Of a stretch of DNA of 64,000 nucleotides, positions 13,736 through 56,588 are shown in pieces. The position numbers were made by a program, and so were the translations under genes. The stretch spans positions 1-64,000 of the forward strand of contig NZ_SRYM01000004.1 of the NCBI RefSeq assembly GCF_004793765.1. Reading direction: 5' to 3'. The stretch is from Parabacteroides distasonis (lineage in GTDB: Bacteria; Bacteroidota; Bacteroidia; Bacteroidales; Tannerellaceae). Each line of letters starts with the position of its first letter. The stretch's first letter is position 1. The notes below the pieces were generated by a model. It did not search any database. It saw only the letters and a list, made by a program, of their open reading frames with translations, and was not told the DNA's origin.

Positions 13736-13824
13736 TACTGCAACGCTCGTGCAGTGTTACTGCAACAGGCATTGCAGTACCGCTGCATAAGCCTTGCAGT
13801 ACTACTGCAACCCGGGTTGCAGTA
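13736..13824. repeat. Tandem palindrome array A (4 units, about 22-bp period)
   Basis: Four units start at 13736, 13758, 13780 and 13803. Each has arms of the type ACTGCA / TGCAGT around a variable 6-7-base centre (ACGCTCG, CAGGCA, TAAGCC, CCCGGG). Unit 2 has perfect 8-base arms TACTGCAA / TTGCAGTA. Unit 4 is a perfect 22-bp palindrome (TACTGCAACCC plus its reverse complement). The array lies between the divergent DUF362 gene and the gene starting at 13911, in a 340-base gap that otherwise holds only the DUF362 promoter. Confidence 0.9.
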
Positions 13825-13910
13825 ATCTTGCGTAATAAGATAAATTCTTGTCGGAAGGCATATCGGTTCTGATAATATTTTCCTACCTTGCGAGGCAAAA
13901 AACAGATTGT

Positions 13911-14690
13911 ATGGTTTTATATTGTAGAGTATCATTGAACGCTTTTGTCGAAAGCTTTCGGAATACCTCGGGGCCTGATTCCTTTTTCACGCTTCCGGCG
14001 AAGGGGTTGATGCATATCGTGCCGCAAGAGGAGATCGAGTATGGGCTTTCCTTGCTTAGGGAGTCTATCGGTTTGTATGAGGAACGCAAAGGGATACCTG
14101 TGGAAAAGAGCAAGAAAGCGATGCCCTTTTTCAGACAGGACAGCCGGATGCTGGTGGGGCCGGAGATAGGCATGTACGTGATCCCTTTGTATGAGAAACC
14201 CGGTGAGCCGGCCCGGTCTGCCGAGCCTTCTCTGCTCCTTGAGCTGGACTATCAGTCGTTGGGCGAGCTTTGCCTGTTCGAGAATTATTCCCTGTTGTCT
14301 TGTAAATATGAGAGGGAGCCTATCTTGAACCATTTTACGGCACAATTGGAAAAGGAATACGATACCTTCTTTTTTGATGAGGAGCACACGGGCTTTACGC
14401 CTGATTCCCGCTTTTTCTCGATGCTGTGTAACGCCTGTCTGGAGGTGAAGCATCCTTCCTCGGTGGGGGATAAGGAATGGCGGTTGGCCTCGCTGCAAGC
14501 TACGGACGAGGTGCTCTATCGTTATGAGCATGGAAACTTGATCCCATACGTCCCGGTATCGATGCCGGTAGACTGCCTGAAACGGGTTTATCTGGAAGAT
14601 TTCCGGCGGCAGCCCTTATTATTCGGGACTTTGAACGGTTTCTTGAAAAGCAAGGGACTTCCCGCCGAACAATTACTAAACTTATCATAA
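13911..14690 (+). CDS. Hypothetical protein, weak DUF2971-like resemblance
   Basis: From the ATG at 13911 the product is 259 residues; earlier alternative starts add up to 21 codons but look unconvincing. It has no signal peptide or membrane segment, so it is probably cytosolic. The order of elements (LCLFENYSLLSCKYE in the middle, FFDEEHTGF, then GDKEWRLASLQ followed by a strand-rich tail) faintly recalls DUF2971 proteins, which have a KEWR-type motif before the C-terminus. I do not consider that proven. It ends 3 bases before the mutarotase gene, so the two are probably cotranscribed. Palindrome array A lies 86 bases upstream. Confidence 0.65.
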   Translation: MVLYCRVSLNAFVESFRNTSGPDSFFTLPAKGLMHIVPQEEIEYGLSLLRESIGLYEERKGIPVEKSKKAMPFFRQDSRMLVGPEIGMYVIPLYEKPGEPARSAEPSLLLELDYQSLGELCLFENYSLLSCKYEREPILNHFTAQLEKEYDTFFFDEEHTGFTPDSRFFSMLCNACLEVKHPSSVGDKEWRLASLQATDEVLYRYEHGNLIPYVPVSMPVDCLKRVYLEDFRRQPLLFGTLNGFLKSKGLPAEQLLNLS

Positions 14691-14693
14691 GGA

Positions 14694-15575
14694 ATGAAGA
14701 CAGTATCAAATCAAGAACTAACGATCCGTGTCGCCGAACATGGAGCGGAGTTGAGTAGTATCGTAGCGAACGCTACGGGAAAGGAGTATCTCTGGCAAGC
14801 GGACCCCGCTTTCTGGAAACGTCATTCCCCGGTATTGTTCCCGATCGTCGGGAGCGTATGGAAGGCCGAGTATCGGAACGAGGGAACCGTGTATCCGCTG
14901 TCGCAGCACGGCTTTGCACGGGATATGGATTTTACGTTGATCGATGAGGCGGAGAATGAGTTGCGTTTCGCGCTGGAAAGTACCCCGGACACGTTGAGAG
15001 CCTATCCGTTCCCTTTCCTTTTGGAGATCGGGTATCGTTTGGAGGGCAATAAGGTGGAGGTGCTTTGGCGTGTGAAGAATACGGGAGATCAGACGATGCA
15101 TTTCCAGATCGGCGCTCATCCGGCTTTCCTGTACCCGAATTATGAGGTGGATCAACCGGATCGGGGGTATTTCGCTTTCGATGTGAAAAAAGATCTCGTA
15201 TACCGTGCGCTGGTGGAGAAAGGGTGCGTAGGGGATGTGGTTCGTCCGGTACCTTTGGATGCGGACGGCTTGCTGCCGTTGAATATCCATACGTTTGATA
15301 TCGATACGTTTATCTTGGAGGACAGCCAGATTAAGCGGGTGGACTTATTGGATGTGGAGAAACGTCCGTACCTTTCGCTCACCTTTACGGCTCCGGTGGT
15401 AGGCTTATGGTCTCCGCCTACGAGAAACGCTCCGTTTGTCTGTATCGAACCTTGGTATGGGCGTTGCGACCGGGTGGATTATACGGGTGAGTATAAAGAC
15501 CGGGATTGGGTATGGCATTTGGAACTGGGAGAGGTCTTCGATGCCTCCTATACGATAGAAATAGCGGGGGCTTGA
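14694..15575 (+). CDS. Aldose 1-epimerase family protein (LacX-like)
   Basis: The 293-residue protein matches the galactose-mutarotase-like fold of LacX-type epimerases. Characteristic parts are HGAELSSIVANATGKEYLWQAD at the N-terminus, SPVLFPIVGSVWK, the QHGFARDMDF His motif, the HFQIGAHPAF His motif at about residue 140, and a C-terminal CIEPWYG containing the catalytic-type Glu. It probably interconverts anomers of a hexose or hexose phosphate; the sugar cannot be told from the sequence. It is not next to a sugar operon, only behind a hypothetical gene. A hairpin separates it from the convergent trkA. Confidence 0.87.
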   Translation: MKTVSNQELTIRVAEHGAELSSIVANATGKEYLWQADPAFWKRHSPVLFPIVGSVWKAEYRNEGTVYPLSQHGFARDMDFTLIDEAENELRFALESTPDTLRAYPFPFLLEIGYRLEGNKVEVLWRVKNTGDQTMHFQIGAHPAFLYPNYEVDQPDRGYFAFDVKKDLVYRALVEKGCVGDVVRPVPLDADGLLPLNIHTFDIDTFILEDSQIKRVDLLDVEKRPYLSLTFTAPVVGLWSPPTRNAPFVCIEPWYGRCDRVDYTGEYKDRDWVWHLELGEVFDASYTIEIAGA

Positions 15576-15600
15576 TCGCTTCGTTGATATTTGCCGTAGG

Positions 15601-15631
15601 CAGACGACGCTGATTATATCGTGATCGTCTG
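15601..15631. terminator. Hairpin between convergent mutarotase and trkA genes
   Basis: Arms CAGACGA and TCGTCTG, 17-base loop, followed by TCTATGTTTTGC. It is the only structure in this 69-base convergent gap. Confidence 0.55.
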
Positions 15632-15644
15632 TCTATGTTTTGCT

Positions 15645-16331
15645 TTAGATGTTGGCTATTTTATTCAATAGCTCTATCTTCCCGAATAAGATCAGTAGAT
15701 CATCCGCCTCGATCACCAATTCCTCGGTGATGCGGCTGATAACCTTGTATTCTGTCTGTGTGAGCCCGATCAGGTTCTTTTTCTCGTAAGGGCGTTCGAT
15801 CGCTATCAGATGGATGCCGAAATTCTCCTCGAAATCGATGTTCTTGATGGTTTGCCCGACAAGAGTGGCCGGTGTCTTGATCTTATAGAGATGTTCCGTG
15901 TCGGTTACTTTATACCAATGCCGGAACAGGCCGCCTAAAGACGCTTGGGAGGTGTACATCGTAGAGAAATCCTTTTCCGGGGTGATGATCTCGCTTACCC
16001 CGATCGCACGGATTACTGTCTCATGGATCGAGGAGATCGCCCGCACGATCAGTTTGCCCGCATCCAAGCTTTTCAATAAGGCGACAGTCTGAACGGAAGT
16101 CCCGAAATCCTTACCGAATGTTACGATAATGGCATCCATCTCACTCAAAGGCAGGGTGTTCAATGCCTCTTTGTCCGTGGAGTCCAAGGCGACCGCCCCC
16201 GCTATGTCGTTTTTCAGCATATCGACACGATGCAGATCCATGTCTACGCCGATCACCTCATTGCCGACACGTGTCAAGTCCTTTGCTATCGCACGTCCTA
16301 AATTCCCTAATCCGATTACTAAATATTTCAT
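15645..16331 (-). CDS. Potassium uptake regulatory subunit, TrkA/KtrA-like
   Basis: The 228-residue cytosolic protein has one RCK module: a Rossmann nucleotide-binding domain (VIGLGNLGRAIAKDL at about 4-18, acidic VIGVDMD near residue 30) and a TrkA-C domain in the last 80 residues (KTPATLVGQTIKNIDFEENFGI). Proteins with a single RCK module work as KtrA-type rings gating the channel subunit. The channel-type gene lies immediately upstream on the same strand, 12 bases away, giving a two-gene operon. Confidence 0.93.
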   Translation of the reverse strand: MKYLVIGLGNLGRAIAKDLTRVGNEVIGVDMDLHRVDMLKNDIAGAVALDSTDKEALNTLPLSEMDAIIVTFGKDFGTSVQTVALLKSLDAGKLIVRAISSIHETVIRAIGVSEIITPEKDFSTMYTSQASLGGLFRHWYKVTDTEHLYKIKTPATLVGQTIKNIDFEENFGIHLIAIERPYEKKNLIGLTQTEYKVISRITEELVIEADDLLILFGKIELLNKIANI

Positions 16332-16343
16332 GCTATCTTGTTT

Positions 16344-18164
16344 TTACATTAATATATTTTCTTGTGGATATGTATAGTCCTTTTTCGTGTATTCCTTGCA
16401 GAAACTTACGAGGAAGGCCAATACCCCGATACGTCCGACCAGCATCGTGCTGATAATGATGATTTTCCCGATAGGGGTGAGATGAGGGGTATAATCGATG
16501 CTCAAGCCTACGGTACTCAAGGCGGAAACAACCTCGAACAATAGGGAGAACAATGGCGCCCCTTTTTCCGTATAAGATAATACCCACGTAGCGATCGCCA
16601 CCCACATGAAGTACATCATGATGATAGCGAATGCCCGGCGGATAGCGAATGGGGCGATCTCCCGTTTTCTCACTTCCACTTTATCTTTCTCACGTGCGGC
16701 GTTCAGGGTCGTAACCAGAGCTACGAAAACGGTGGTCACTTTCAATCCGCCGCCGGTGGACATAGGGGCGGCTCCAATTACCATAAGGATCCACGTCAGC
16801 ATTAAGGTCGGAGGGGCCAATGTAGTCATATCCGCCACGTTGAATCCTGCCGTTCTAGGCGTGACGGCGCCTAAGAACGCATTTGCCAGTTTCCCCCGCA
16901 AAGGAAGGTCGCCCAAGGTATTGTCATACTCGAAAAAGAGGTAGAAAACTGTTCCGGTAATTAATAGGATCAAGGTAGATATAACAACTATGTACGTATG
17001 TACATTAATGATACGGGGCGTATGGATATAATGCTTTTGCTTACCGATCAATATCTTGATACCATTCATCAGCAAGTGATGCAAGAGTTTCAGGTAATTG
17101 AAGACGATCGGGAAGCCCAAGCCTCCGAATATAATCAGCATGGCTATCCAGAAATGGAGGTTGTACTTATCCGCCACTAACGGATCGTACATATTGCCGC
17201 TCAAGGTAGAGATCCCTGCGTTACAAAAAGCGGACACGGCATGAAACATTGCGTAGAATAATTCCTGCTGCGTACCTCCCGGCAGGCTTCCCCGTACGTC
17301 CATATAAATAAAATAGGCACCGATCCCCTCGATAAACAAGGTCACGAAAAGAATATTTAAGATGACCCGGAATAATCCTCCCGTCCGATCCTCGTTCAAC
17401 ATATCTTTCAGCATCATCTTGCTCGTAAAAGAGGATTTCCCCATAAAGGAGAGGGCGAAGAAAGAGGTAAATGTCATGACTCCTATGCCGCCTATCTGTA
17501 TTAAAATCAGGATGATAATATGACCAATATGCGTGAAACTGGTGGCTACATCGACGGTAGTTAGTCCGGTTACGCATACCGAGGTCGTGGAGATAAACAA
17601 AGCGTCGATAAACGGAATCCGGTGCGTAGTGGCGTTCGGCAACGATAGCAACCCGGCCCCGACCAATATCACGAACACGAAACTGAGCAAGAAAAGCAAC
17701 GAGGGCTTGATCCGTGTCTGCATCAGCGTGAACGTCTGCCGGGATAAGTGAATCGTGCTAAGTAGCAATAATAAGACATATACGAAGAGAGGTTTCGTAA
17801 GGAAAGACAAATAAGGCAAGGAGTGCGCTATGGCATCCTTGAAAAATATTTTGCTGGATAATACGGCGAATAAAAGGAAATAGATGCTGATATCGAGATA
17901 CAACATTTTCTCCTGTATGATTTCTTGGAACCTCACCACGTACCGGAGTGTTATGCCCGTGAAAAAAGCTAGCAGGATGAATGGGCGGGAACGCTCTAGG
18001 ATATGGACGGAATCGGGTGTCTGTACAAAGCCGAACTGGTAGATCAATACGAAGAAAGAGGCTAAGGAGGCGAGTAGGATGGTCGCTTCCGCTATCCCGT
18101 TCAACAATCCCTTCATTTTATCCCAATAAATCAGCCAGGCGAAGTATATGTTTTTTAGATTCAT
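16344..18164 (-). CDS. Potassium transporter subunit, TrkH/KtrB family
   Basis: From the ATG at 18164 the product has 606 residues (MNLKNIYFAWLIYWDKMKGLL). A longer frame begins at 18233, but a -7 element sits between the two starts, so the shorter is preferred. Ten or more membrane helices are present. The C-terminal two thirds carry the four-fold pore pattern of Trk/Ktr, with filter-like segments STTSVCVTGL, VSAFCNAGIS, VTPRTAGFN and VSALSTVGLS. The first 150 residues contain extra helices as in larger Trk-type subunits. It forms an operon with the RCK gene. Confidence 0.93.
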   Translation of the reverse strand: MNLKNIYFAWLIYWDKMKGLLNGIAEATILLASLASFFVLIYQFGFVQTPDSVHILERSRPFILLAFFTGITLRYVVRFQEIIQEKMLYLDISIYFLLFAVLSSKIFFKDAIAHSLPYLSFLTKPLFVYVLLLLLSTIHLSRQTFTLMQTRIKPSLLFLLSFVFVILVGAGLLSLPNATTHRIPFIDALFISTTSVCVTGLTTVDVATSFTHIGHIIILILIQIGGIGVMTFTSFFALSFMGKSSFTSKMMLKDMLNEDRTGGLFRVILNILFVTLFIEGIGAYFIYMDVRGSLPGGTQQELFYAMFHAVSAFCNAGISTLSGNMYDPLVADKYNLHFWIAMLIIFGGLGFPIVFNYLKLLHHLLMNGIKILIGKQKHYIHTPRIINVHTYIVVISTLILLITGTVFYLFFEYDNTLGDLPLRGKLANAFLGAVTPRTAGFNVADMTTLAPPTLMLTWILMVIGAAPMSTGGGLKVTTVFVALVTTLNAAREKDKVEVRKREIAPFAIRRAFAIIMMYFMWVAIATWVLSYTEKGAPLFSLLFEVVSALSTVGLSIDYTPHLTPIGKIIIISTMLVGRIGVLAFLVSFCKEYTKKDYTYPQENILM

Positions 18165-18188
18165 GTCCGATGTTTTATAAATATATAA

Positions 18189-18196
18189 CAAATGTA
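18189..18196 (-). promoter_or_regulatory. Putative -7 element for the potassium transport operon
   Basis: On the minus strand it reads TACATTTG. It lies 24 bases before the ATG at 18164 but downstream of the alternative start at 18233, which favours the shorter protein. Confidence 0.6.
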
Positions 18197-18377
18197 GGAA
18201 ATAAAAGTTAGAGGTTCGTGAAGACGCCTTCATTATTTGTTCTCATGCTAATTGTTTTACTTACATTATGTGTTGTATAGCATATTGTACGATTTACGAT
18301 ATTGAAAATATCAGAAAAATAATTGATTAGTAGGTATAAAAAAGGTATTTTGTAATAGCTTTATTAAGAAAAATACT

Positions 18378-18385
18378 TATATTTG
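18378..18385 (+). promoter_or_regulatory. Putative -7 element for the xylose unit
   Basis: TATATTTG, 22 bases before the start of the NUDIX-type regulator gene. A TTTG lies 25 bases upstream of it, somewhat farther than the usual 19-21. Confidence 0.6.
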
Positions 18386-18407
18386 CGTAAATCTAATTAC
18401 TGATATC

Positions 18408-19148
18408 ATGGATACACAAAACGAGAATAGAGAGATGCTTTCCCCTTATGTTTCCGTAGACTGCGTTCTTCTCGGCATCAATGATGACAAGCTCACCGTG
18501 CTGCTGGCAGAGCGGAAAAGCGAGGAGGGCGAGTTGATCGGCTATAAACTACCTGGTAGCCTGATCTATGAGAACGAGGATTTAGATGACGCCGCTTATC
18601 GGATACTGAATGATTCGACTGGCTTGAAGCGTGTCCAATTGAAACAATTCCGTTGTTTCGGTTCCCCCGCCCGTACCTCGAACCGCTTGGACGTGATGTG
18701 GCTGGAGGCGACTTCCAAGGTGAAGATCGGACGGTTGATCACGGTCGCTTATCTTGCCTTGTGCAAGAACAGTAGGAAGACGTGTTCGGCCGATAAATCC
18801 GACTCGATCCGCTGGTGCCCGATCAATGAGCTTCCCCGTTTGCCATTCGATCATAAAGAGATTATCGAGGCTGCCATACAGGAGATCCGTAATTGGGTGG
18901 AGAAGGAGCCCGCCATCATTTTCGACTATATGCCGATGAAGTTCACGGCGTTTCAGCTTAGGCGCACGTACGAGGTGATCTATAACCGTGAGATGGACGT
19001 GCGCAATTTTCATAAGAAGATGAATTCCTTGGATTACGTGGTGCCCACGGAGGACATGCAAGACGGGGTCGCCCATCGTGCCGCACGGTATTATCGGTTT
19101 GATAAGGTGAAATATAATCAACAACGTTCGAAGTTTAATAAGATATAA
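18408..19148 (+). CDS. NUDIX-type transcriptional regulator (NrtR family), probable xylose regulator
   Basis: The 246-residue protein has an N-terminal NUDIX-like fold (about 12-150; YVSVDCVLLGINDDKLTVLLAERK, GYKLPGSLIYENEDLDDAAYRIL) and a C-terminal winged helix (about 165-235; FTAFQLRRTYEVIYNREMDVRNFHKKM). The NUDIX box lacks the full REVxEE signature (DDAAYRILNDSTGL), as in regulators that bind rather than hydrolyse a ligand. NrtR-family proteins of this kind control pentose use in Bacteroides, for example the arabinose regulator AraR. Its position 12 bases before xylulokinase points to xylose or xylulose-type ligands and control of xylBAE, possibly with autoregulation. Confidence 0.88.
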   Translation: MDTQNENREMLSPYVSVDCVLLGINDDKLTVLLAERKSEEGELIGYKLPGSLIYENEDLDDAAYRILNDSTGLKRVQLKQFRCFGSPARTSNRLDVMWLEATSKVKIGRLITVAYLALCKNSRKTCSADKSDSIRWCPINELPRLPFDHKEIIEAAIQEIRNWVEKEPAIIFDYMPMKFTAFQLRRTYEVIYNREMDVRNFHKKMNSLDYVVPTEDMQDGVAHRAARYYRFDKVKYNQQRSKFNKI

Positions 19149-19160
19149 AACCATACGATT

Positions 19161-20645
19161 ATGTGTCTGTTAGGATGTGACATTGGAAGTTCTTCCATCA
19201 AGGTCTCTATTATCGATGAGGAGACCGGGTTAACAATAGGTGCGGATTTTTATCCCAAAGAAGAGGCCCCGATTAAGGCGTTGCGCCCAGGGTGGGCGGA
19301 GCAAAATCCAGAGGATTGGTGGTCGTACGTGAAGATCGCTATGAAAGGCGCCATGAGCAAGGCGAAGGTGAAAGGCGAGGATATCAAGGCGATCGGTATC
19401 TCGTACCAGATGCATGGCTTGGTGGCGGTGGACAAGAAGATGGAGGTGCTTCGTCCATCTATTATCTGGTGCGATAGCCGTGCTGTTCCTTATGGCGAGC
19501 GTGCGTTTAAGAATATAGGCGAGAAACGATGCCTTACCCACCTATTGAACTCGCCGGGTAATTTTACCGCTTCCAAGCTGGCTTGGATCAAGGAGTACGA
19601 GCCGGATATTTACGGCCGTATTCATAAGATCATGTTGCCAGGAGATTTCATAGCCATGCGCCTTACGGGGGATATCGTGACTACGGTTTCCGGTTTGTCG
19701 GAGGGGATCTTCTGGGACTTCAAGAATAATGCTTTATCGGAGGATTTGATGAATTATTATGGATTCAGTAAGGATCTGATCGCCGATATCCGTCCGACGT
19801 TCGGTGTGCAGGGCGAGGTTACCGCCTCGGTTGCGGCCGAGTTGGGATTGAAGAAAGGTACGCCGGTTACCTATCGTGCGGGCGACCAGCCGAATAACGC
19901 TTTATCATTGAATGTATTGAATCCGGGTGAGATAGCGGCTACCGGCGGGACTTCCGGAGTCGTGTATGGCGTGAACGGCAAGGTGAATTACGATACGCTT
20001 TCCCGTGTGAATACGTTCGCCCACGTGAACCATACGACGGAGCAGACCCGTTTGGGTGTCTTGTTGTGCATCAACGGAGTCGGTATCCTTAATTCTTGGA
20101 TCAAACGGAATATAGCGCCAGAAGGTATTAACTATAATGAGTTGAATGATTTGGCGGCTACGGTTCCCATTGGTTGCGACGGACTTTCGATCTTGCCGTT
20201 CGGAAACGGGGCAGAGCGTATATTGCAGAATAAGCAAATCGATTGCTCGGTTCATGGATTGAACTTTAACATACATACCAAGGCGCATATGGCTAGGGCG
20301 GCGCAGGAAGGTATCGTGTTCGCCTTTAAATACGGTATGGATATCATGAATGAGATGGGGATCGATATTCAGGTAATCCGTGCGGGGAATGCGAACTTGT
20401 TCTTAAGCCCGATTTTCCGGGATGCTTTGGCGGGCGTGACGGGTACGGTGATCGAACTGTATGATACGAACGGTGCGGTAGGAGCGGCCAAGGGTGCCGG
20501 TATTGGTGCCGGTATCTATAAGAATGCGGAAGAAGCGTTCGCTTCCTTGAAGAAGATTAACGTGATCGAGCCGGACGGTTTCAAGGCGAATGCTTATTGT
20601 GGGGCGTTCGAGATTTGGAAAGGACGATTGGAGCAATCTATTTAA
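19161..20645 (+). CDS. xylB: Xylulokinase
   Basis: The 494-residue FGGY-family kinase phosphorylates D-xylulose to xylulose 5-phosphate. It shows the N-terminal phosphate loop [29 protein letters not shown] with the substrate-contacting MHG, WCDSRA, and the C-terminal ATP-site segments [11 protein letters not shown] and [19 protein letters not shown]. The length is normal. It follows the regulator by 12 bases and precedes xylose isomerase by 35 bases, so regulator, kinase and isomerase form one unit. Confidence 0.95.
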
Positions 20646-20680
20646 CAGCAGAATTATTTACATTTTTAATATATATTATT

Positions 20681-22009: not shown

Positions 22010-22022
22010 ATAATTAAAAAAT

Positions 22023-22088
22023 CGAGAATTGGGAATTGAAAATTATCGTGCGTAAGCCCTAGTTTTCAGCTCTCAATTCTCGGTTTTT
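22023..22088 (+). terminator. Hairpin with T-run between xylA and xylE
   Basis: Outer arms CGAGAATTG and CAATTCTCG, inner TGAAAA / TTTTCA pairing, followed directly by GTTTTT. It looks like an intrinsic terminator yet stands inside the presumed xyl unit, so it could lower xylE expression relative to xylBA. Confidence 0.65.
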
Positions 22089-22106
22089 CACTTATAAATC
22101 TATTCC

Positions 22107-23654: not shown

Positions 23655-23676
23655 TTCGGTATAATTGATAGTGATT

Positions 23677-24423: not shown

Positions 24424-25221
24424 TTACGCCTCCGGTTGCCCGTTCGTCTCCTCTTCCTTCCGCTTGTTGGCGCTCTTCGTGGCACGTGCCTTGATGATCG
24501 CACTCTGGCGGTCGATGAGGGTGTTGAGGGCGTTGATCACGTCGATGTAATCGGTGTCGCCGTTCACTTCGGCGAGGGCGTTGAGGCGTTTCACGGCGGC
24601 CCGATATGCGTTGTCGGTGGCTAGGCGGGCGGCCTTGGTAGCGCCGGTCACTTTCGTGGCGTTTTGCGTGTTACGCTCGGCGAACAACTCCAGGAAACGA
24701 GCCGTTTCGGTCTTCAGCCGGCTTACCCAGCCGTCGATATGGATGGCGGCGAGGCGGTTCGTGGTGATCTCGTCCGCAGATATCTCGTCGGGCGACTCCG
24801 AGTCCGATACGCCGTCGAATTCCTCCAGCTCTTGTATCAGGTTATGCAACACGCCGGCCTCCTCCAAGTAGGGCAGGGCGGTGGGATTGCCGTATTTCTT
24901 GAGGATGATACGGGCCTGCCGTGCCACCTCGGCGATGGCGGGGTCGAAGAAGCCTTCCATGGCGGATACCTGGCTGTTCAATCCCCGGTAAAGCTTATCG
25001 CAGACGGTGTCTTGGGTTATGATGGGCTGGCTGAGGACATGCTCGCCGCCGCTTTGTTTCAACGCTTTGTCGAACGTCTCGTAGGCGGTTTTGTAGACTT
25101 GGTACACGGGAGCGAGTTTCTCGTCCGTGCATTTACCCATCTCTGCTATAGCTATTTTATGAAAGCCGAAGTCTTCTTCTTGGCGAAGGCGACTTTGATC
25201 GATGTACTTGATTTCACTCAT
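24424..25221 (-). CDS. DUF6261-like protein of unknown function
   Basis: The 265-residue protein is almost entirely helical and acidic, without signal peptide or membrane segments. It resembles the DUF6261 group that is widespread and often multicopy in Bacteroidales: an N-terminal FHKIAIAEMGKC..LAPVYQVYKTAYETFDKALKQS, a central VARQARIILKKYGNPTALPYLEE and a C-terminal RLATDNAYRAAVKRLNALAEVNGD...FINALNTLI-type helix pair. It ends in a basic tail. No function is known to me. Its likely 5' leader contains the five-unit palindrome array C. Confidence 0.75.
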   Translation of the reverse strand: MSEIKYIDQSRLRQEEDFGFHKIAIAEMGKCTDEKLAPVYQVYKTAYETFDKALKQSGGEHVLSQPIITQDTVCDKLYRGLNSQVSAMEGFFDPAIAEVARQARIILKKYGNPTALPYLEEAGVLHNLIQELEEFDGVSDSESPDEISADEITTNRLAAIHIDGWVSRLKTETARFLELFAERNTQNATKVTGATKAARLATDNAYRAAVKRLNALAEVNGDTDYIDVINALNTLIDRQSAIIKARATKSANKRKEEETNGQPEA

Positions 25222-25249: not shown

Positions 25250-25446
25250 TTGTCAAGAGTTCCCGACAGCTGTTTTTTGTTTGTTTTTTCCTTGTCAAGA
25301 GTTCCCAACAGCCGTTTTTTGTTGTCCTTCTTGCTGTCGGGAGTTCCCGACAACGTTTTTTTTGTTGTTTTTCTCCTGTCGAGAGTTCCCGGCAGCTGTT
25401 TTTTGCTGTTTTCCTCTTGTCGGGAGTTCCCAACAGCTGTTTTTTA
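25250..25446. repeat. Tandem palindrome array C (5 units, 42-bp period)
   Basis: Five units begin (TGTC) at 25251, 25293, 25335, 25377 and 25418, spacings 42, 42, 42 and 41. Each contains a near-palindrome of the form TGTCGGGAGTTCCCGACA, perfect in unit 3, followed by about GCTG and a run of six or more T. Read on the plus strand each unit resembles an intrinsic terminator. Read on the minus strand the array would be a leader of five hairpins separated by A-rich linkers, between a putative promoter at 25459 and the DUF6261-like start at 25221. Confidence 0.92.
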
Positions 25447-36641: not shown

Positions 36642-36707
36642 TACTGCAACCCGGGTTGCAGTGATACCGCGATGCGGATGCAGTAACACTGCATCCGCAT
36701 CGCGGTA
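36642..36707. repeat. Palindrome site B (one array-A-type unit plus a 20-bp hairpin)
   Basis: 36642-36663 matches unit 4 of array A at 21 of 22 positions. Directly after it, perfect 20-base arms at 36665-36684 and 36688-36707 (beginning TACCGCGATGCGG) form a hairpin with a 3-base loop AAC; its tip again contains GATGCAGT and ACTGCATC. It lies between the dipeptidase remnant and the 3' end of the sensor kinase gene. Confidence 0.9.
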
Positions 36708-47652: not shown

Positions 47653-47676
47653 AGACGGGGGTATGCCCCGTCTCTA
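47650..47676. repeat. Dispersed hairpin repeat (TAGAGACGG family), copy 2
   Basis: Perfect 11-base arms TAGAGACGGGG and CCCCGTCTCTA around a 5-base loop. It shares its arms with copy 1 at 8666-8691. The first three bases are the stop codon of the preceding rhamnosidase gene. Confidence 0.8.
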
Positions 47677-47720
47677 CGACAATAGGTGGAAATTTAATTA
47701 CTAAAATATATGATGCTACT

Positions 47721-50303: not shown

Positions 50304-50334
50304 TCTTATAAATCCGCTGTTTATTGCCGTGGGC

Positions 50335-50398
50335 TTACGATGGGCATTGTAAGCGGTTTACAATGCCCATTGTTAGCTTCTTACAATGCCCATTGTTA
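50335..50398. repeat. Tandem palindrome array D (3 units, 23-bp period)
   Basis: Units at 50335-50352, 50358-50375 and 50381-50398. Units 2 and 3 are identical (TTACAATGCCCATTGTTA); unit 1 is an inverted copy differing at two positions. Each unit is itself nearly palindromic (ACAATG / CATTGT). Spacing of unit starts is exactly 23 bases. It fills the gap between two rhamnosidase genes. Confidence 0.9.
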
Positions 50399-50417
50399 AA
50401 TACTTAAATGAAGAGAT

Positions 50418-52637
50418 ATGAAAAAACGTATATGTTCCTATTGGTTGGGGATGCTGGTGGCACTATGCTTACTGGATGCTTTCTCCTTGTCTGCTCGAAC
50501 TGTTTTCCCTTGGAAAGCCCAATGGATTAATACCGAGCGTTGCCAAAGCGCTACGAATACTTGGTTGATCTACCGTAAATCATTCGCTGTGACGGATGTC
50601 CCGAATCAACTCATCGCCCGTATCGCCGCCGATTCCAAGTATTGGCTTTGGATCAACGACCAACTGGTTGTCTTTGAGGGTGGCTTGAAAAGAGGACCTT
50701 CTCCTTCCGGGACTTATTACGATCCGGTAGATATCGCCCCTTACCTGACAAAAGGCTCGAACACCATCGCTATCTTGCTCTGGCATTTCGGGAAAGACGG
50801 TTTCAGCCATATTAACAGCGGGAAAGCGGCTTTGTTATTCGAGGCGATCGCTCCGGGACTGGAGATCGTCTCCGACGCGAGCTGGCAGTGCGCCTTGTAT
50901 GAGGCCTATCAAAATACCGAGGCCCCTTTCCCGAATTACCGTATGCCGGAGAGTAATATCCGCTTCGATGCCCGTCAAGCGATAACAAACTGGAACCGTA
51001 CGAGTTTCGAAGGTTCCCTTCCGGGGGCGGTCTGCGTCGGTAAGGCGGGGAAAGCTCCTTTCGGGGAGCTGGTGGAACGTCCGATACCCCAGTGGAAAAA
51101 CAGCGGCCTGTTATCCTATGTATCCGTCCGGGAATCCTTGAAAGGCGATACCTTGTTCTGTCGTTTGCCCTATAATGCCCAGATCACTCCGTATCTGAAA
51201 GTAGAGGCGGAGGCCGGGAAGACTATCCACATCCGGATGGATAATTACGAGGGAGGAAGCGAGCGCAACGTACGTGCCGAATATATCACCCGTGAGGGTG
51301 AGCAGGAATACGAAAGCTATGGCTGGATGAACGGCCATGAGGTCTATTACATCATCCCCGAGGGCGTGAAGGTGCTGGATGTGAAATACCGTGAGACCGG
51401 TTACAACACGGACCTCGCGGGCTCTTTCCATTGTGACGACCCGTTCTACGACGAGCTTTGGCAACGTTCTGCCCGCACCTTATACATAACGATGCGTGAT
51501 AATTATATGGACTGTCCGGATCGTGAACGTGCCCAATGGTGGGGTGACGAGGTGAATGAGCTAGGCGAGGCTTTCTATGCCCTTTCTCCGTCCGGGCAGA
51601 AACTAGCCGTAAAAGGCATCCATGAATTAATGAATTGGCAGCGGGAGGACGGAACGCTCTACGCTCCGGTTCCGGCGGGTAATTGGGATAAGGAGCTTCC
51701 TTTACAGATGTTGGCGTCTATCGGTTGGTACGGTTTTTATACGCAATATTATTATAGTGCCGACAGTAGTTTCGTACCGATGATATACGACCGGATGCGC
51801 CGTTACCTGCACGAGGTTTGGCAAGTCGATAAGAGTGGCTTGGTGATCGAGCGTCAAGGTGCTTGGAGTTGGGGCGACTGGGGCGAGCACGTCGATATGG
51901 GTGTATTGACCAATTGCTGGTATTATCTGGCCTTGAAAGCGGAGCGAGCCTTCGCCCTGCAACTCGGCAAGGATAAGGATGCCGATGAGATCTCCCGGAT
52001 GATGCGTAGCATAGAACGTTGTTTCGACACGAAGTTCTGGACGGGTTCCGCCTATCGCTCCCCCGGCTATAAAGGGGAGACGGACGATCGCTCCCAAGCC
52101 ATGGCGGTTGTTTCCGGGCTGGCCTCGAAAGATAAGTACCCGGCGCTGACGAAGGTACTTAAAAAGGAGTATCACGCCAGCCCTTATATGGAGAAGTATG
52201 TCCTAGAGGCCCTTTTCCAGATGGGCGAGCCGGCGTTTGCCTTGGAACGGATGAAGCAACGTTACACCCGTATGCTGGATTATGCCGAATACACGACCTT
52301 GTTCGAGGGATGGGGCATCGGAGCCGAGGGCTTCGGCGGCGGCACGATCAATCACGCTTGGAGCGGTGGCCCGCTTACCTTATTGAGCCAGAAGGTCTGC
52401 GGTATCGAGCCAACCTCTCCCGGCTTCCGTACCTTTAGGATTGCGCCTCAACTGGGTTTCTTATCGGAAGCCTCTGCCAGCCTAGAGACTCATTATGGAA
52501 CCATCCAAGTAAGCATCAAGAAGAAAGGCAAGCGATTGAGGTTCGATCTCCAAATCCCGGAAGGTACCTCCGCCGAACTGATAAGACCGAACGGCACTCG
52601 CAAGCATCTCGGCCCGGGGCACTATCAAGTGGATTAG
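50418..52637 (+). CDS. Alpha-L-rhamnosidase-related glycosidase (GH78-type)
   Basis: The 739-residue exported protein (signal peptide about 1-27, ending LSARTVFPW) has an N-terminal jellyroll (KAQWINTERCQSATNTWLIYRKSF, and LWINDQLVVFEGG), then a six-hairpin barrel with NYMDCPDRERAQWWGDEVNEL (about 364-382), the GH78-like acidic motif, and a C-terminal domain beginning SPGFRTFRIAPQLGFLSEASASLET. It differs clearly from the two upstream rhamnosidases, so the three may cut different rhamnoside linkages. Array D separates it from the previous gene. It is the last gene of the putative rhamnose operon. Confidence 0.85.
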   Translation: MKKRICSYWLGMLVALCLLDAFSLSARTVFPWKAQWINTERCQSATNTWLIYRKSFAVTDVPNQLIARIAADSKYWLWINDQLVVFEGGLKRGPSPSGTYYDPVDIAPYLTKGSNTIAILLWHFGKDGFSHINSGKAALLFEAIAPGLEIVSDASWQCALYEAYQNTEAPFPNYRMPESNIRFDARQAITNWNRTSFEGSLPGAVCVGKAGKAPFGELVERPIPQWKNSGLLSYVSVRESLKGDTLFCRLPYNAQITPYLKVEAEAGKTIHIRMDNYEGGSERNVRAEYITREGEQEYESYGWMNGHEVYYIIPEGVKVLDVKYRETGYNTDLAGSFHCDDPFYDELWQRSARTLYITMRDNYMDCPDRERAQWWGDEVNELGEAFYALSPSGQKLAVKGIHELMNWQREDGTLYAPVPAGNWDKELPLQMLASIGWYGFYTQYYYSADSSFVPMIYDRMRRYLHEVWQVDKSGLVIERQGAWSWGDWGEHVDMGVLTNCWYYLALKAERAFALQLGKDKDADEISRMMRSIERCFDTKFWTGSAYRSPGYKGETDDRSQAMAVVSGLASKDKYPALTKVLKKEYHASPYMEKYVLEALFQMGEPAFALERMKQRYTRMLDYAEYTTLFEGWGIGAEGFGGGTINHAWSGGPLTLLSQKVCGIEPTSPGFRTFRIAPQLGFLSEASASLETHYGTIQVSIKKKGKRLRFDLQIPEGTSAELIRPNGTRKHLGPGHYQVD

Positions 52638-52688
52638 TGATCTGTGTGTTTGTTATATTTCTCAAAAACAGAAGCAAAGAGTAAATAT

Positions 52689-52720
52689 TTTGGTAAAGAA
52701 CGGAATTTATCCTACATTTG
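52689..52720 (+). promoter_or_regulatory. Promoter of the small-protein / DUF6169 pair
   Basis: TTTG at 52689-52692, a spacer of 20 bases, then TACATTTG at 52713-52720: a full match to the Bacteroidota promoter in both elements and spacing. The first ATG lies 27 bases downstream. Confidence 0.75.
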
Positions 52721-52747
52721 TAATATATAAGTATTATATCGAAGGAT

Positions 52748-52912
52748 ATGGAAAAAGAGAAAAATAGCAAGATTACCAGAGAAGAGGCTTTGCGTCGGTT
52801 GGAGACCGCACGGAAGCTAAAGCGAGAGTATGTAGCTAAACTGGAAAAAGAGATGAAAGAAGAGTTTAAGAAACGTACAGGGCAAGAAGCTACTTATTTT
52901 GAAGTATGGTAA
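52748..52912 (+). CDS. Small charged helical protein (54 residues) overlapping a DUF6169-like gene
   Basis: This short frame reads MEKEKNSKITREEALRRLET and continues as a strongly charged amphipathic helix (ARKLKREYVAKLEKEMKEEF) ending YFEVW. It lies 27 bases after a textbook promoter, and its end overlaps the next gene by 7 bases in another frame, so it is very likely translated. The order small gene first, overlapping a larger gene, resembles toxin-antitoxin or immunity pairs, but the sequence matches no antitoxin family that I know. Confidence 0.7.
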   Translation: MEKEKNSKITREEALRRLETARKLKREYVAKLEKEMKEEFKKRTGQEATYFEVW

Positions 52913-53409
52913 GCCTTAACCTTGAACGTATAAATTCTAATTCTCCTTATGCGGTAACAGCTCTTAGGGATTCTATGTGTTTCCGGTTTGTTACGGACTT
53001 TGGTGTGATTTATTATGTCAGTTTTCTCGAGGACGAATTGATGCTTAGTGATGAATCCTATCAATTTATTATTGCTAATACGAATAATAGAAAGTCTCCT
53101 CGTGATTCTAAGTTGAGGCGGGCGATAATGGCGATAGTCTATGAGTTTTTTGAATGTTCTAATACAACTCTGTTGTATATTTGTGAGACAGGAGATAGCA
53201 AGCAGAGTATGCGCAATCGCCTTTTTGAGTTTTGGTTTCATTCCTCGCCGCGTAAATCTGATTTCGCTTTCATGTCTGCGGACATCCGAGATGCGGATGG
53301 GATACAGAATTATGCGGCGATTATTATTCGACTCGATAATCCCAATTTGAAGTCTATAGTCGCGGAGTTTACTGAAACAATACAAATACTTAGTCAAAAG
53401 CCGGAGTAA
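52906..53409 (+). CDS. DUF6169-like protein
   Basis: The 167-residue cytosolic protein shows the order FRFVTDFGVIYYVSFLEDEL, then a helix with RDSKLRRAIMAIVYEFFE, TTLLYICETGDSKQSMRNRLFEFWF and a C-terminal IIIRLDNPNLKSIVAEF, which I associate with the DUF6169 family of Bacteroidota. The function is unknown. It overlaps the preceding small gene by 7 bases and shares its promoter. Base composition is lower in G+C than the rhamnosidases before it, which fits accessory origin. Confidence 0.75.
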   Translation: MVSLNLERINSNSPYAVTALRDSMCFRFVTDFGVIYYVSFLEDELMLSDESYQFIIANTNNRKSPRDSKLRRAIMAIVYEFFECSNTTLLYICETGDSKQSMRNRLFEFWFHSSPRKSDFAFMSADIRDADGIQNYAAIIIRLDNPNLKSIVAEFTETIQILSQKPE

Positions 53410-53450
53410 AATGTATGTATTTTCTCCGGCCCGGGGCACCATTGGGTGGA

Positions 53451-54092
53451 TTAGTGATCGCCCTCTGTTTTCCTGCGGACATACACCCGGTGGCTTCCAT
53501 AACCCGATAGGGTAATTCCACTCGCCGGGTCGCTACTGAGGCGTAGTAGCTCACGGTTTGCGCTACTACGTTTTAGTCCGGTGACAGCCATGTAGTCTTG
53601 TATGCGCAAGAAAGGATGTTCATCCAGGTAATCCAATGCCCGTGTCCGGCGTTCCTCTTCGGTGAAGGGCGATTTCCGGACACGGCTGATACCTCCCCGT
53701 CTTAAATCGCAACGCAGGTTAGTCTCCCGTATCAGCTCCTTGTCGGCCCGGTAGTTGATACCATTCACCTCAATGCTCCGTGCGTTACGCTTCGGTTCGT
53801 CACCATCCAGCGAGTCGATCTCCTTGTTCTTCGCCACGCCTAGGCGGGGCGTGAACGTACCGATGCCATCCAACGTGACCGACTGCCCTTCCGCCATGCA
53901 ATAGGCCAGATGTTCCGCTACTGTCGTCATCACCTGTATTACGCTACCCCTGCTCAAGCCCGATCCGGGGTAGGTGATCCGTTCCACGAAATCCTCCATG
54001 TCCATGTTCCGTTGTATCTTCATCCGATAATACACAGGCTTTTCCCCCGTCCCGTTCAGGTCGCACATCTCTTGCTTGATATATTCTGCCAT
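53451..54092 (-). CDS. HU-like DNA-binding protein with C-terminal winged-helix-like domain
   Basis: The 213-residue protein has an HU/IHF-like fold of the Bacteroidota HIG type (about 15-125): YYRMKIQRNMDMEDFVERI, then SRGSVIQVMTTVAEHLAYCMAEGQSVTLDGIGTFTPRLG. After a linker rich in Arg comes a helix-turn-helix-like domain (about 145-205; ALDYLDEHPFLRIQDYMAVTGLKRSSANRELLRL), ending in a beta hairpin with VYVRRK. A nucleoid-type protein with an added reader domain is suggested. Array E lies upstream of its promoter. Confidence 0.85.
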   Translation of the reverse strand: MAEYIKQEMCDLNGTGEKPVYYRMKIQRNMDMEDFVERITYPGSGLSRGSVIQVMTTVAEHLAYCMAEGQSVTLDGIGTFTPRLGVAKNKEIDSLDGDEPKRNARSIEVNGINYRADKELIRETNLRCDLRRGGISRVRKSPFTEEERRTRALDYLDEHPFLRIQDYMAVTGLKRSSANRELLRLSSDPASGITLSGYGSHRVYVRRKTEGDH

Positions 54093-54152
54093 AACTGCTA
54101 CTAGGTATAATTGTTTGTATCTTCAAGTTAAAAACATTCTTCTTACTATATA

Positions 54153-54160
54153 CAAATATA
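54153..54160 (-). promoter_or_regulatory. Putative -7 element for the HU-like gene
   Basis: On the minus strand it reads TATATTTG, 61 bases from the start codon. Confidence 0.5.
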
Positions 54161-54190
54161 CTTATTACTTGATCTATTTCCAAATTATCA

Positions 54191-54268
54191 CCGTGGAATA
54201 TATAGACCACGTCGTGATTTGTATATTCCACGTCTTGATCTGTACAGACCACGTCGTGGTTTGTAGAA
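54191..54268. repeat. Tandem palindrome array E (3 units, 21-bp period)
   Basis: CCACG begins at 54207, 54228 and 54249, exactly 21 bases apart. Units 1 and 3 contain GACCACGTCGTG followed by an ATTTGTA- or GTTTGTA-type tail; unit 2 has CCACGTCTTGATCTGTA. CCACGTCGTGG is a palindrome around a central T. A partial inverted copy (CCGTGGAATATATA) precedes the array. It lies between the divergent promoters at 54153 and 54429. Confidence 0.85.
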
Positions 54269-54428
54269 TTATATAGTATGCGAACAAGAATCCATAAGCT
54301 ATCGAGCAAGGATTCATATAGGAGTAGAGCGTTTTTTGCTTAGGGGAGTAGAGGGTAGACAGGAAGGTAAAAGAACGTATACTGCGTAAATAATGTACGT
54401 CCGTATACCTTATATCCGCGTATTTATG

Positions 54429-54436
54429 TATATTTG
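54429..54436 (+). promoter_or_regulatory. Putative -7 element for the DUF4143 ATPase gene
   Basis: TATATTTG, 69 bases before the start codon. The rest of this 412-base gap holds array E and no other gene. Confidence 0.5.
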
Positions 54437-54504
54437 TATGGCGAATTGGTGCTGAAAAATGTGATGATTAGCTATGTTTATCCGCGTAAAAATGTTGTAT
54501 TCAT

Positions 54505-55785
54505 ATGGAAAGAACTGTTTTAAAGGAACTTATTGAATGGAAAGAAAGAGCGGACAGAAAACCTCTTATCCTTAATGGTGCCAGACAAGTGGGCAAGACT
54601 TGGTTACTCCATGAGTTTGCCAGGCTTGAATATAAGAAAGAGGCTTATGTCGTATGTCGTAAGAACAATCTTGCCCGGCAGCTTTTTACACAGGACTTTG
54701 ATGTGGAAAGAATTTTGCGCGGTCTTCGTGCCATGACTTCGGTGGATATCACTCCTGGCGATACGCTCGTCATTTTGGATGAGGTACAAGATATCCCGGA
54801 GGTATTGGAGGCGTTGAAGTATTTTAAGGAGGAAACTCCGGACTACCATATCGCGGTGGCGGGTTCGCTTTTGGGAATTTCTTTGCATGAGAATGTATCA
54901 TATCCGGTAGGTAAGGTTAATGTCATCAACCTGTATCCTATGAGTTTCGAGGAGTTTCTTATGGCGAAAGGAGAGAAAGAGGCCTGTAAACTACTTATGA
55001 GCCGTGACTATGGGATGATGAGTCTGTTGCATGAGAAGTATGTGGATCTTCTCCGCCAGTATTATTATGTGGGAGGCATGCCGGAGGCTGTTTCGAAATA
55101 CGTGGAGACCGGAGCTTTACGGGAGGTAAGGCGTATCCAGCAGGAGATTCTCCAAGGTTACGATCTTGATTTCTCGAAACATGCGCCCAAAGAGCAAGTG
55201 CCGCGTATCCGGATGGTTTGGAACAGTGTGCCGTCTCAATTATTCAAGGAGAATAAGAAGTTTATCTATGGCGCTTTACGTAAAGGCGCGAGGGCCAACG
55301 ACTTTGAGCTTTCCATACAATGGCTTGTCAATGCGGGTTTGTTGTATAAGATACCTCGATGCACGAAACCCGAGTTGCCGCTCGCCGTTTACGAGGACTT
55401 ATCGGCTTTCAAGCTTTATATGGTAGACCTAGGCTTGATGGGAGCGATGGTCCAGACCGATCCTGCGCAAGTCTTGATAAAGAATGATATATTCAAGGAG
55501 TATAAGGGTGGACTAACTGAGCAATACGTTTTGCAACAGATGAAAAGCAAAGGCGTGTCTCCCATTTATTATCATACGGCGGACAATTCACGCCTAGAGC
55601 TTGATTTCATCATCCAACGGGGAGCGGAAATGATCCCGATAGAAGTGAAGGCCGAAGGTAATGTCCGGGCTAATTCCTTGATGAACTTATTGGACAAGGT
55701 ACCAAGCCTGCATGCGGAGCGATATTCCATGCTGCCTTACAAGGAGCAAGGCAACCTGACGAATATTCCTCTTTATGCGGTATGA
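54505..55785 (+). CDS. AAA-type ATPase with DUF4143 C-terminal domain
   Basis: The 426-residue protein belongs to the common AAA/DUF4143 group. Walker A is NGARQVGKTWLL (about 24-35) and Walker B TLVILDEVQDIPEVLEALKYF (about 91-111). The C-terminal DUF4143 part has VDLGLMGAM and a nuclease-like core with LELDFIIQRGAEMIPIEVKAE (D-x-n-E-V-K pattern near 365-385). These proteins are widespread in gut Bacteroidota, often in many copies, with unknown function; mobility or defence roles have been suggested. It is monocistronic. Confidence 0.9.
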   Translation: MERTVLKELIEWKERADRKPLILNGARQVGKTWLLHEFARLEYKKEAYVVCRKNNLARQLFTQDFDVERILRGLRAMTSVDITPGDTLVILDEVQDIPEVLEALKYFKEETPDYHIAVAGSLLGISLHENVSYPVGKVNVINLYPMSFEEFLMAKGEKEACKLLMSRDYGMMSLLHEKYVDLLRQYYYVGGMPEAVSKYVETGALREVRRIQQEILQGYDLDFSKHAPKEQVPRIRMVWNSVPSQLFKENKKFIYGALRKGARANDFELSIQWLVNAGLLYKIPRCTKPELPLAVYEDLSAFKLYMVDLGLMGAMVQTDPAQVLIKNDIFKEYKGGLTEQYVLQQMKSKGVSPIYYHTADNSRLELDFIIQRGAEMIPIEVKAEGNVRANSLMNLLDKVPSLHAERYSMLPYKEQGNLTNIPLYAV

Positions 55786-55801
55786 AATAGCAAAGGGCTG
55801 A

Positions 55802-55850
55802 TCCCGGTTATCATCATCGCCTACGCCCAAGGCGATGACGATAACCGGGA
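55802..55850. terminator. Long bidirectional terminator hairpin
   Basis: Arms TCCCGGTTATC / GATAACCGGGA plus inner CATCGCC / GGCGATG, separated by two-base bulges on each side, form a strong hairpin in the convergent gap after the ATPase gene. Confidence 0.8.
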
Positions 55851-55862
55851 AAGCATTATCTA

Positions 55863-56273
55863 CTAGCCTTTCTGTCGCTTGGTGACTGTGAATTTAGAGT
55901 ATTTCTCATACTTGGAGCCTTTGGAGAATATATCCGGCATATGTCTCGCCGCAAACCGTAACTTCTCCTCATCCGTATGGAAATCCTTTCCTTCGCAATA
56001 TTTCTCTATGTCTTTGACAGCCTCAAGGAAAGCGTCTTTTTGGGATTCGGTCACGATCGGTAGCTCCGTTGAGTCCGCCTCTATTGCGTTTCTCGGATCT
56101 GCCGGTGCGATCATAAAGATCTTTTCGTTACATTCCCCCATCTTGATGTGAAACTGCACGTATTGCTCATCGGTAAGCTCAAGGAAATCTTCTTCTTTAA
56201 GGATAAATCCATATTGGAATGTTAACTGCATGGCCTGCCCGCCCCAACCGAATAGTAAATCAAAAATATCCAT
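55863..56273 (-). CDS. Hypothetical protein
   Basis: The 136-residue acidic protein (MDIFDLLFGWGGQAMQLTFQYG) has no signal peptide by its charge pattern, no membrane segment and no family that I recognise. It contains a helix-rich second half (SQKDAFLEAVKDIEKYCEG, LRFAARHMPDIFSK) and a basic C-terminus. A -7 element lies 61 bases upstream, and palindrome array F lies upstream of that. Confidence 0.7.
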   Translation of the reverse strand: MDIFDLLFGWGGQAMQLTFQYGFILKEEDFLELTDEQYVQFHIKMGECNEKIFMIAPADPRNAIEADSTELPIVTESQKDAFLEAVKDIEKYCEGKDFHTDEEKLRFAARHMPDIFSKGSKYEKYSKFTVTKRQKG

Positions 56274-56333
56274 AGCGTAAATTTTTATAAAGTTATTAAT
56301 GTTCTAGTATGAAACCTAAGTTAAGGTTTGGGG

Positions 56334-56341
56334 CAAAGGTA
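56334..56341 (-). promoter_or_regulatory. Putative -7 element for the hypothetical gene at 55863
   Basis: On the minus strand it reads TACCTTTG (TAnnTTTG), 61 bases from the start codon. Confidence 0.55.
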
Positions 56342-56501
56342 ACGTAAAAGCTGGGAGATACAAGTAAAATCGGGGTTTTGTTTATTACGTTTTAGGATAT
56401 CCTATGTATTCGGATCGTATGATACCTATTTTCTCTAGTAGTTATATACAATAAGTCTTTCGATATGCTCTCTTTTGTAAACGACTGATAATTAGTGCTT
56501 C

Positions 56502-56588
56502 AAAAACAAGATGATGTTTTCTCAAAAACTTGTACGTGTTTCCCAAAAAACTCGTACAAGTTTTTGAGAATTCATGTACATGTTTTTC
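56502..56588. repeat. Tandem palindrome array F (4 units, 22-bp period)
   Basis: Unit centres at 56510 (GATG), 56532, 56554 and 56576 (GTAC each), exactly 22 bases apart. The consensus arm is AAAAACTTGTAC followed by its complement; unit 3 reads ACTCGTACAAGTTTTTGAGA, unit 4 CATGTACATG. It lies in a 612-base gap that otherwise contains two promoters and the leader described at 56708. Confidence 0.88.

Follow-up and report, generated by a model that had tools for sequence, protein, structure and literature searches.

What purpose could be served by rows of short palindromes that repeat at a nearly constant spacing, each row with a palindrome of its own? The question is raised by a stretch of 64,000 nucleotides from Parabacteroides distasonis (contig NZ_SRYM01000004.1, positions 1 to 64,000; hereafter the window), in which five such rows, arrays A, C, D, E and F, were recognised. 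The initial annotation had offered two readings, slippage copying of a local hairpin or a family of protein-bound arrays with array-specific recognition. We found that two unrelated protein families of gut Bacteroidales, HU-HIG and DUF6261, usually have a row of palindromes, often of about four units, just upstream of their genes. The spacing of the row is set by the family, the palindrome sequence is particular to the gene, and copies are scattered after other genes. Judging from sequence comparison, the arrays probably act as DNA binding platforms of the linked protein, specific to each paralogue, likely self-regulating and provided with dispersed extra sites. The source genome of the window, G000 (4.21 Mb, 177 contigs), was compared with 37 further genomes of the same genus. 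The features concerned are the following.

13737..13823, no strand: array A, 87 bp long and made of four ACTGCA-N7/8-TGCAGT units separated by 3-bp linkers; orphan.
24424..25221, minus strand: DUF6261 gene, 265 amino acids, presumed partner of array C (Pfam PF19775, E 1.3e-29).
25251..25445, no strand: array C, a row of five palindromes, TGTCGGGA-N-TCCCGACA, with a period of 42 (41 for the last).
36643..36706, no strand: second A element, three units, between convergent genes.
50336..50400, no strand: array D, three units TTACAATG-CC-CATTGTAA, period 23; orphan, 33 bp past the stop of a GH78 gene.
53451..54092, minus strand: HU-HIG gene, 213 amino acids, presumed partner of array E (Pfam PF18291, E 7.7e-15), with an HU domain and a predicted C-terminal winged helix.
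54153..54184, minus strand: promoter-like TTTG ... TATATTTG between array E and the HU-HIG gene, directed into the gene; assigned by reading from what we take to be the Bacteroides promoter consensus.
54190..54265, no strand: array E, four units around CCACG-N-CGTGG, the outermost degenerate, period 21; directly upstream of the promoter-like site.
56502..56587, no strand: array F, orphan, with four units built around AAAACTTGTAC-GTACAAGTTTT at a period of 22.

Direct reading confirmed the positions and spacings first reported for the five arrays. The units of array A start at 13737, 13759, 13782 and 13804 (spacings 22, 23 and 22), and the TGTC starts of array C lie at 25251, 25293, 25335, 25377 and 25418 (spacings 42, 42, 42 and 41). 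Tandem Repeats Finder missed A and detected C (score 228), D (78), E (88) and F (60). The initial annotation had placed all the arrays next to unrelated genes, which does not apply to C and E, since the gene immediately downstream of each belongs to the family matching its period; array C is 30 bp upstream of the DUF6261 start. These placements had been overlooked, as had the three-unit A element at 36643-36706 and the dispersed palindrome families. The statement that the sequence differs between arrays is correct inside the window, but the palindromes of A, C, D, E and F all recur elsewhere in G000 or its relatives. The initial observation is thus correct and claimed too little rather than too much.

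In genes of both families taken from six genomes, the tandem repeats measured 41-43 bp for DUF6261 and 21-23 bp for HU-HIG. The association was evaluated by ungapped self-similarity at lags of 12-60 in the 330-bp upstream region of each usable gene, a score that records repetition and not palindromy. A lag of 41-43 occurred at 41 of the 49 DUF6261 genes and a lag of 20-23 or 44 at none of them, and the latter occurred at 32 of the 37 HU-HIG genes of at least 190 amino acids, with lag 41-43 again at none. Control genes of G000 returned 4/303 and 16/303 for the DUF and HU lags, respectively, or 1/284 and 6/284 without genes whose upstream region overlaps a known array. In shuffled sequences of the DUF6261 set, lag 41-43 appeared in 0/490 and lag 20-23 in 1/490 cases, those of the long HU-HIG set gave 0/370 for both classes, and shuffled 330-bp regions upstream of the control genes yielded lag 20-23 at a score of at least 14 in 0/852.

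These counts exclude six loci with a wrong or cut open reading frame call (L141, L145, L151, L162, L179 and L182, of which L145 and L162 do show 42-bp repeats), three without a reliable open reading frame (L294, L298 and L303, the last showing lag 43), the refetched or cut copies L278-L281, and the HU-HIG loci L198-L217, in 8 of which 20 repeats of period 21-24 are present. The loci drawn from genome searches are best matches and not a random sample. Since self-similarity does not report on dyads, palindromy was assessed separately by permuting the positions within the period alike in all units, a procedure that keeps the tandem repeat and destroys the dyad. Palindromy exceeded the null mean in 32/32 HU arrays and 40/41 DUF arrays, with p at most 0.05 in 25 and 20 of them, respectively; the dyad is therefore clear for HU arrays and weaker, taken one by one, for DUF arrays.

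The family-specific period recurs more widely. Among 22 further HU-HIG genes (G001, G056, G063, G074, G090, G108 and G116), the best lag was 20-23 in 21, and the score reached at least 14 in 19. The best lag was 41-43 at 17 of 24 DUF6261 loci from 11 other Bacteroidales families, spanning 8 families, and fell outside this range at the loci of three families (f54, f74 and f76); of six DUF6261 loci outside Bacteroidales, four showed lag 41-42, three with a score of at least 18. DUF6261 itself was present in 13 of 119 sampled Bacteroidales genomes and in 5 of 247 of the phylum sample, and a genome-wide scan of contigs with five close sequences retrieved 5 loci. Relatives of DUF6261 were also encoded by two unannotated faecal entries labelled 'Bacteriophage sp.' (MT837725.1 and MT839608.1).

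The arrays lie far above chance expectation. In 452 kb of G000 we counted 39 repeat rows of period 17-60, 18 of them with a consensus stem of at least 6, a figure that is not a genome density because the 452 kb were picked around array A; three dinucleotide shuffles of the same DNA gave 4, 2 and 3 rows, of which 1, 0 and 1 had such a stem. A generic dyad detector, which was too strict, returned 4 arrays against 0 in shuffles, and a loose scan for the E motif yielded noise. A chance origin of the arrays was thus ruled out by the shuffles of the 452 kb and of the gene-upstream regions.

The palindromes are paralogue-specific, as those of close orthologues are mostly alike and those of paralogues of one genome, 70-86% identical, can have nothing in common. 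Taking a share of 7-mers above 0.12 as array sharing between two genes, arrays were common to 7/10 HU pairs and 2/3 DUF pairs with proteins at least 85% identical, and to 2/452 and 6/776 pairs, respectively, below 40% identity. The HU-HIG protein of the window is 70-71% identical to its paralogues on contigs C128 and C33 of G000, and the corresponding arrays share 0 and 2% of their 7-mers. Syntenic relatives of the window DUF6261 gene, in G017 (77%) and G023 (82%), have different palindromes at an equal period, and the palindrome and period of array C recur in G014 and G023 at DUF6261 genes that are less closely related (52 and 66% identity). Four HU-HIG paralogues of G056, near 86% identity, have all kept the array flanks; the palindromes are common to three, and every unit is changed in the fourth, whose putative recognition helix has SKTVASKELVEF in place of SKPMASRELVEF (or SKPAASRELIEF). 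The C-terminal wing of HU-HIG diverges faster than the HU domain in all pairs compared (e.g. 18/88 vs 11/125).

The linked proteins were then considered. HU-HIG domains have reportedly been analysed by Burroughs and colleagues. The structural model of the window HU-HIG protein (predicted local distance difference test, pLDDT, 76.8; predicted template modelling score, pTM, 0.46) and the profile search returned an HU/IHF match over residues 33-118 and a weak winged-helix match over residues 141-199 (2mh2, E 0.0076), and the top Foldseek match of the model was 4fmr, a DNA-binding protein of Bacteroides vulgatus (E 7e-4). The DUF6261 model is all-alpha (pLDDT 84.5, pTM 0.54). The arrays at HU-HIG thus adjoin the gene of a protein predicted, from its winged helix, to bind DNA sequence-specifically, and DNA binding by DUF6261 is a conjecture. 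No Rep or ParB domain was found in the linked proteins scanned, the Pfam matches of the window proteins being HU-HIG or DUF6261 only, and the defence libraries gave no match.

As a separate observation, ten G000 proteins (contigs C44, C89, C90, C103, C112, C113, C130, C132, C156 and C177; L268-L277) end in -SESPDEI, for which a control pattern gave 0 matches. Six of them are HU-like, two are DUF6261, one is DUF6266-like (below the Pfam cut-off) and one is a fragment resembling DUF6261 by eye. The SESPDEI motif also occurs inside DUF6261 loops, and the counterpart tail in G014 is -ERPGEL or -DRPGEL.

From these patterns we infer that each HU-HIG or DUF6261 product recognises its own upstream palindromes and that its paralogues do not. 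With a period of two helical turns at HU-HIG genes and of four at DUF6261 genes, bound units would lie on one face of the DNA, and binding could therefore be cooperative; bound dimers of the HU-like proteins might wrap the DNA in this manner. Since the array adjoins the gene, self-control is suggested, and autoregulation would be the simplest use of the arrays. The orphans, namely A, D, F and most E copies, would represent extra sites, tolerated or used just past gene ends, and some may be remnants of lost array-plus-gene cassettes. The array-specific, protein-bound arrays proposed at the outset thus receive strong support as to the pattern, with two families, their own periods and paralogue-specific palindromes, and the binding itself is deduced.

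Several results weigh against these proposals. The period test failed at 8 of the 49 DUF6261 and 5 of the 37 long HU-HIG genes. An array-period lag was found at 3 of the 16 HU-HIG genes below 190 amino acids, so that a few short HU proteins without the winged helix carry arrays too; likewise, the array D partner L271 (G000, contig C103) is a 153-residue HU-like protein with no apparent winged helix and four D-type units upstream, and the winged helix is therefore not essential for an array. The DUF6261 model had no match in the PDB at E 0.001, hence no recognised DNA-binding fold, and sorting DUF6261 residues by palindrome was no better than other groupings (5 columns vs 28, 7, 7, 5 and 1), so that candidate specificity residues of this family were discarded as showing nothing beyond phylogeny. 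As for partners of the orphans, no A-type cluster was seen in the fetched HU-HIG or DUF6261 loci, and neither family had a match in 6-kb stretches enclosing the two G032 copies of array F. Finally, with the Bacteroides-type -7 box consensus as a guide, the array was downstream of a box in 11, upstream in 8 and without a box in 13 of 32 HU cases, the corresponding figures for 41 DUF arrays being 3, 8 and 30; a single operator geometry is unsupported, because the box was found in only 19/32 HU and 11/41 DUF cases, in some upstream and in others downstream of the array.

DNA-binding proteins that control their own genes through several operators are well known, and the arrays are similar in that the sites adjoin the gene of the presumed binder at a two-turn spacing. 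They differ in the family-wide fixed period, the frequent number of about four units, the fast change of specificity among paralogues and the orphans past gene ends. ParB-parS and plasmid iteron-Rep systems also comprise site arrays linked to their own protein, with iterons about 20-22 bp apart, whereas the proteins scanned here have no ParB or Rep domain and many paralogues occur per chromosome. In Porphyromonas gingivalis, the HU protein PG0121, described in parts of PMC3969353 as similar to E. coli HU, is encoded beside a 77-bp inverted repeat with a regulatory role. What the two have in common is an HU-like protein of Bacteroidales and an adjacent inverted repeat, but in that account the repeat is a single long one and not a row of tandem short palindromes, and the protein is not presented as an HU-HIG with a winged helix.

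A wider proposal, which we put forward only tentatively, is a pan-Bacteroidales addressing system, in which HU-HIG and DUF6261 would have diversified into many mutually insulated protein-array pairs in each genome. Orphans past gene ends would mark private chromosomal sites for each protein, serving as anchors, boundaries or transcription roadblocks, and the C-terminal tag common to HU-like, DUF6261 and DUF6266-like proteins (-SESPDEI in G000) would link the families through a shared partner.

The exact 15-base A motif, ACTGCAA-N1-8-TTGCAGTA, gave 29 forward matches at 20 loci in G000, where the reversed control pattern gave 0, 5 forward matches in G004, at most one each way in G002, G010 and G023, and 0 in the other 33 genomes. 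Reading of the 20 loci showed four units in 15, five in two, three in two and one in one, the counts of L040, L051, L052 and L056 including diverged units judged by eye; an A element typically spans 87 bp. Fourteen of the 19 mapped A elements lie within 40 bp of a gene 3' end, against a mean of 1.8 and a maximum of 7 in 2000 trials in which elements were placed at random in intergenic regions 100 bp or longer, with gene calls from our own simple script; seven of 19 lie between convergent genes, where 3.1 were expected (p 0.02). The D palindrome recurs at scattered positions in G010, G017, G020, G032 and G036, mostly with four units, the E palindrome recurs in G000, G004, G017 and G023, and array F has two further copies in G032, 8-12 bp from gene ends. 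The orphan E copies of G000 and G004 have up to 250 bp in common with the HU-HIG upstream region, and two orphan E arrays adjoin remnants of the HU-HIG gene start; therefore some orphans are best explained as remains of array-plus-gene cassettes. The E copies also share flanks with one another.

At orthologous A sites, where the flanks compared between species were about 90-97% identical, the unit number varied from 1 to 4. Four units in G000 correspond to one in G004 (L038, L044), to one in G023 (L053), to two in G004 with the second inverted (L046) or to three (L057), and four were kept at L051 and L054. Elsewhere the palindrome itself was different, with ACCGCA...TGCGGT at L038 and GGAGTTAACTCC units at L039 in G023, and TGCCA...TGGCA at L042 in G004. 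At the L043 site, which holds an A element in G000, G004 has by a sigma-factor-like gene a 206-residue HU-HIG gene with its own four palindromes (L208, 1987600-1990400). Retention in relatives, on which the initial annotation had made its proposal depend, differed between arrays: array E was kept with all its units in P. distasonis, the array, the promoter-like site and the gene being conserved in G004 and P. distasonis TSDC17, and array D was not kept. The D site holds a simple hairpin in G035 and no array in G013, and its orthologues L100 (G004) and L101 (G023), corresponding to window 50304-50417, hold an unrelated long inverted repeat GTAGAGACGGGG...CCCCGTCTCTAC with the inner segment oppositely oriented in the two genomes.

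Three minor observations concern these sites. A palindrome similar to the L100/L101 inverted repeat is present near window 47660-47690. The orthologue of L045 in G023 (L258) has at the A site a hairpin of ATTTATGATTTAT repeats, another kind of repeat. Comparison of L041 with L253 revealed, beside the A element, about 700 bp of a gene that are present in G004 and missing from G000.

The species-specific dispersal of the A motif, the location just past gene ends, as is the case for repetitive extragenic palindromic (REP) sequences, the unlike arrays at orthologous sites and the G004 HU-HIG gene with its own array in place of an A element would all be expected of a REP-like selfish system, in which non-autonomous repeats are spread by the HU-HIG or DUF6261 protein or by a transposase in trans, the protein being a partner or a domesticated relic. 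Palindrome and protein moreover diverge together, as described in parts of PMC2817692 for REPs and their REP-associated tyrosine transposases (RAYTs). Like the arrays, REPs are palindromes scattered between genes, with an abundance specific to the species and with each kind linked to a protein gene of its own. RAYT subclasses of Bacteroidetes are mentioned in a portion of PMC6006769. As far as these partial accounts go, the present system differs in that the partner is HU-HIG or DUF6261 and not a Y1 transposase, and in that tandem units at a fixed helical period are found upstream only, whereas two inverted REPs flank the RAYT gene; no arrays were present among the repeats found downstream of the window DUF6261 and HU-HIG genes.

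The selfish system is rather unlikely on the remaining evidence. Neither HU-HIG nor DUF6261 proteins showed a nuclease or transposase domain among those scanned, the orthologous sites compared did not include a clean empty one with a target duplication, copies number in the tens and not hundreds, and most counted arrays stand at their own gene. A Y1 transposase (PF01797) was found at E 0.001 in 8/38 genus genomes, with no match in G000, G004, G010, G014, G017, G020, G023, G032 or G036; RAYT-driven REPs were rejected on the result for G000. The initial view that the arrays are not REP/RAYT elements thus holds as to the transposase and not as to dispersed, species-specific palindromes, which do occur.

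Another comparison is offered by BrickBuilt of P. gingivalis, a miniature inverted-repeat transposable element with tandem 23-nt repeats, 19 copies of which are reported for one strain in parts of PMC4596501. Both systems are intergenic, belong to the same order and have tandem units, the 23-nt length being shared by D and parts of A and the other periods being 21, 22 and 42 bp. BrickBuilt, as portrayed there, forms a single sequence family, has a leader and a tail with small inverted-repeat ends, and comes with no linked protein; the present arrays are of many different sequences, their units are palindromic and proteins are linked to them.

It is very improbable that the units function as hairpins in 5' or 3' untranslated RNA, even though they are able to form hairpins, the promoter-like box precedes the array in the 11 HU and 3 DUF cases given above, and the plus strand of array C reads by eye, terminator-like, as a series of five hairpins, a T run coming after each one. 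By the same intrinsic-terminator criterion, a T run after each unit is absent from arrays A, D, E and F. In the gene sense, G-T and A-C mismatches numbered 20 vs 22 in HU and 15 vs 37 in DUF arrays, and RNA hairpins were discarded on this lack of a G-T excess; in 8 HU and 8 DUF cases the box lies between array and gene, and the window gave no Rfam match at the gathering score.

Least credible is a functionless by-product of hairpin slippage or template switching, which would account for the 1, 2, 3 or 4 units at orthologous sites, one of them inverted, and might be hinted at by a weak U1-U4 loop complementarity of A units (p 0.04, uncorrected, one of 12 comparisons; not relied on), but predicts neither two protein families with two periods nor a simultaneous change of all units with flanks kept. 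Slippage copying, the other of the two original readings, or template switching probably also acts, because orthologous arrays hold 1-4 units, one inverted between species, and leaves the protein association unexplained.

The DNA binding platforms would thus constitute what looks like a lock-and-key system of DNA-bound arrays, apparently undescribed. No description of the arrays was found in the open-access literature searched, subscription papers lying outside that search, and the combination of a family-specific period, a paralogue-specific palindrome and dispersed orphans is, as far as searched, undescribed. Should plain autoregulation be the whole explanation, the pattern would be less novel and closer to known operator systems. 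If the proposal is correct, two large families now annotated only as 'HU-like' or 'unknown function' would gain a function-linked DNA partner, and a natural library of protein-palindrome pairs would be available, with specificity changed between near-identical paralogues of one genome, making questions of recognition code and coevolution directly testable. Abundant gut bacteria may also owe a large part of their intergenic repeats to such arrays.

Two further repeats were noticed. A short segment outside array F (window 56743-56832), with no Rfam match, matches many genomes of the genus, often several times each. Upstream of the DUF6266-like gene (L273), a single case, the unit ACAACGGCCCT, about 11 bp or one helical turn long, is repeated in tandem four to five times.

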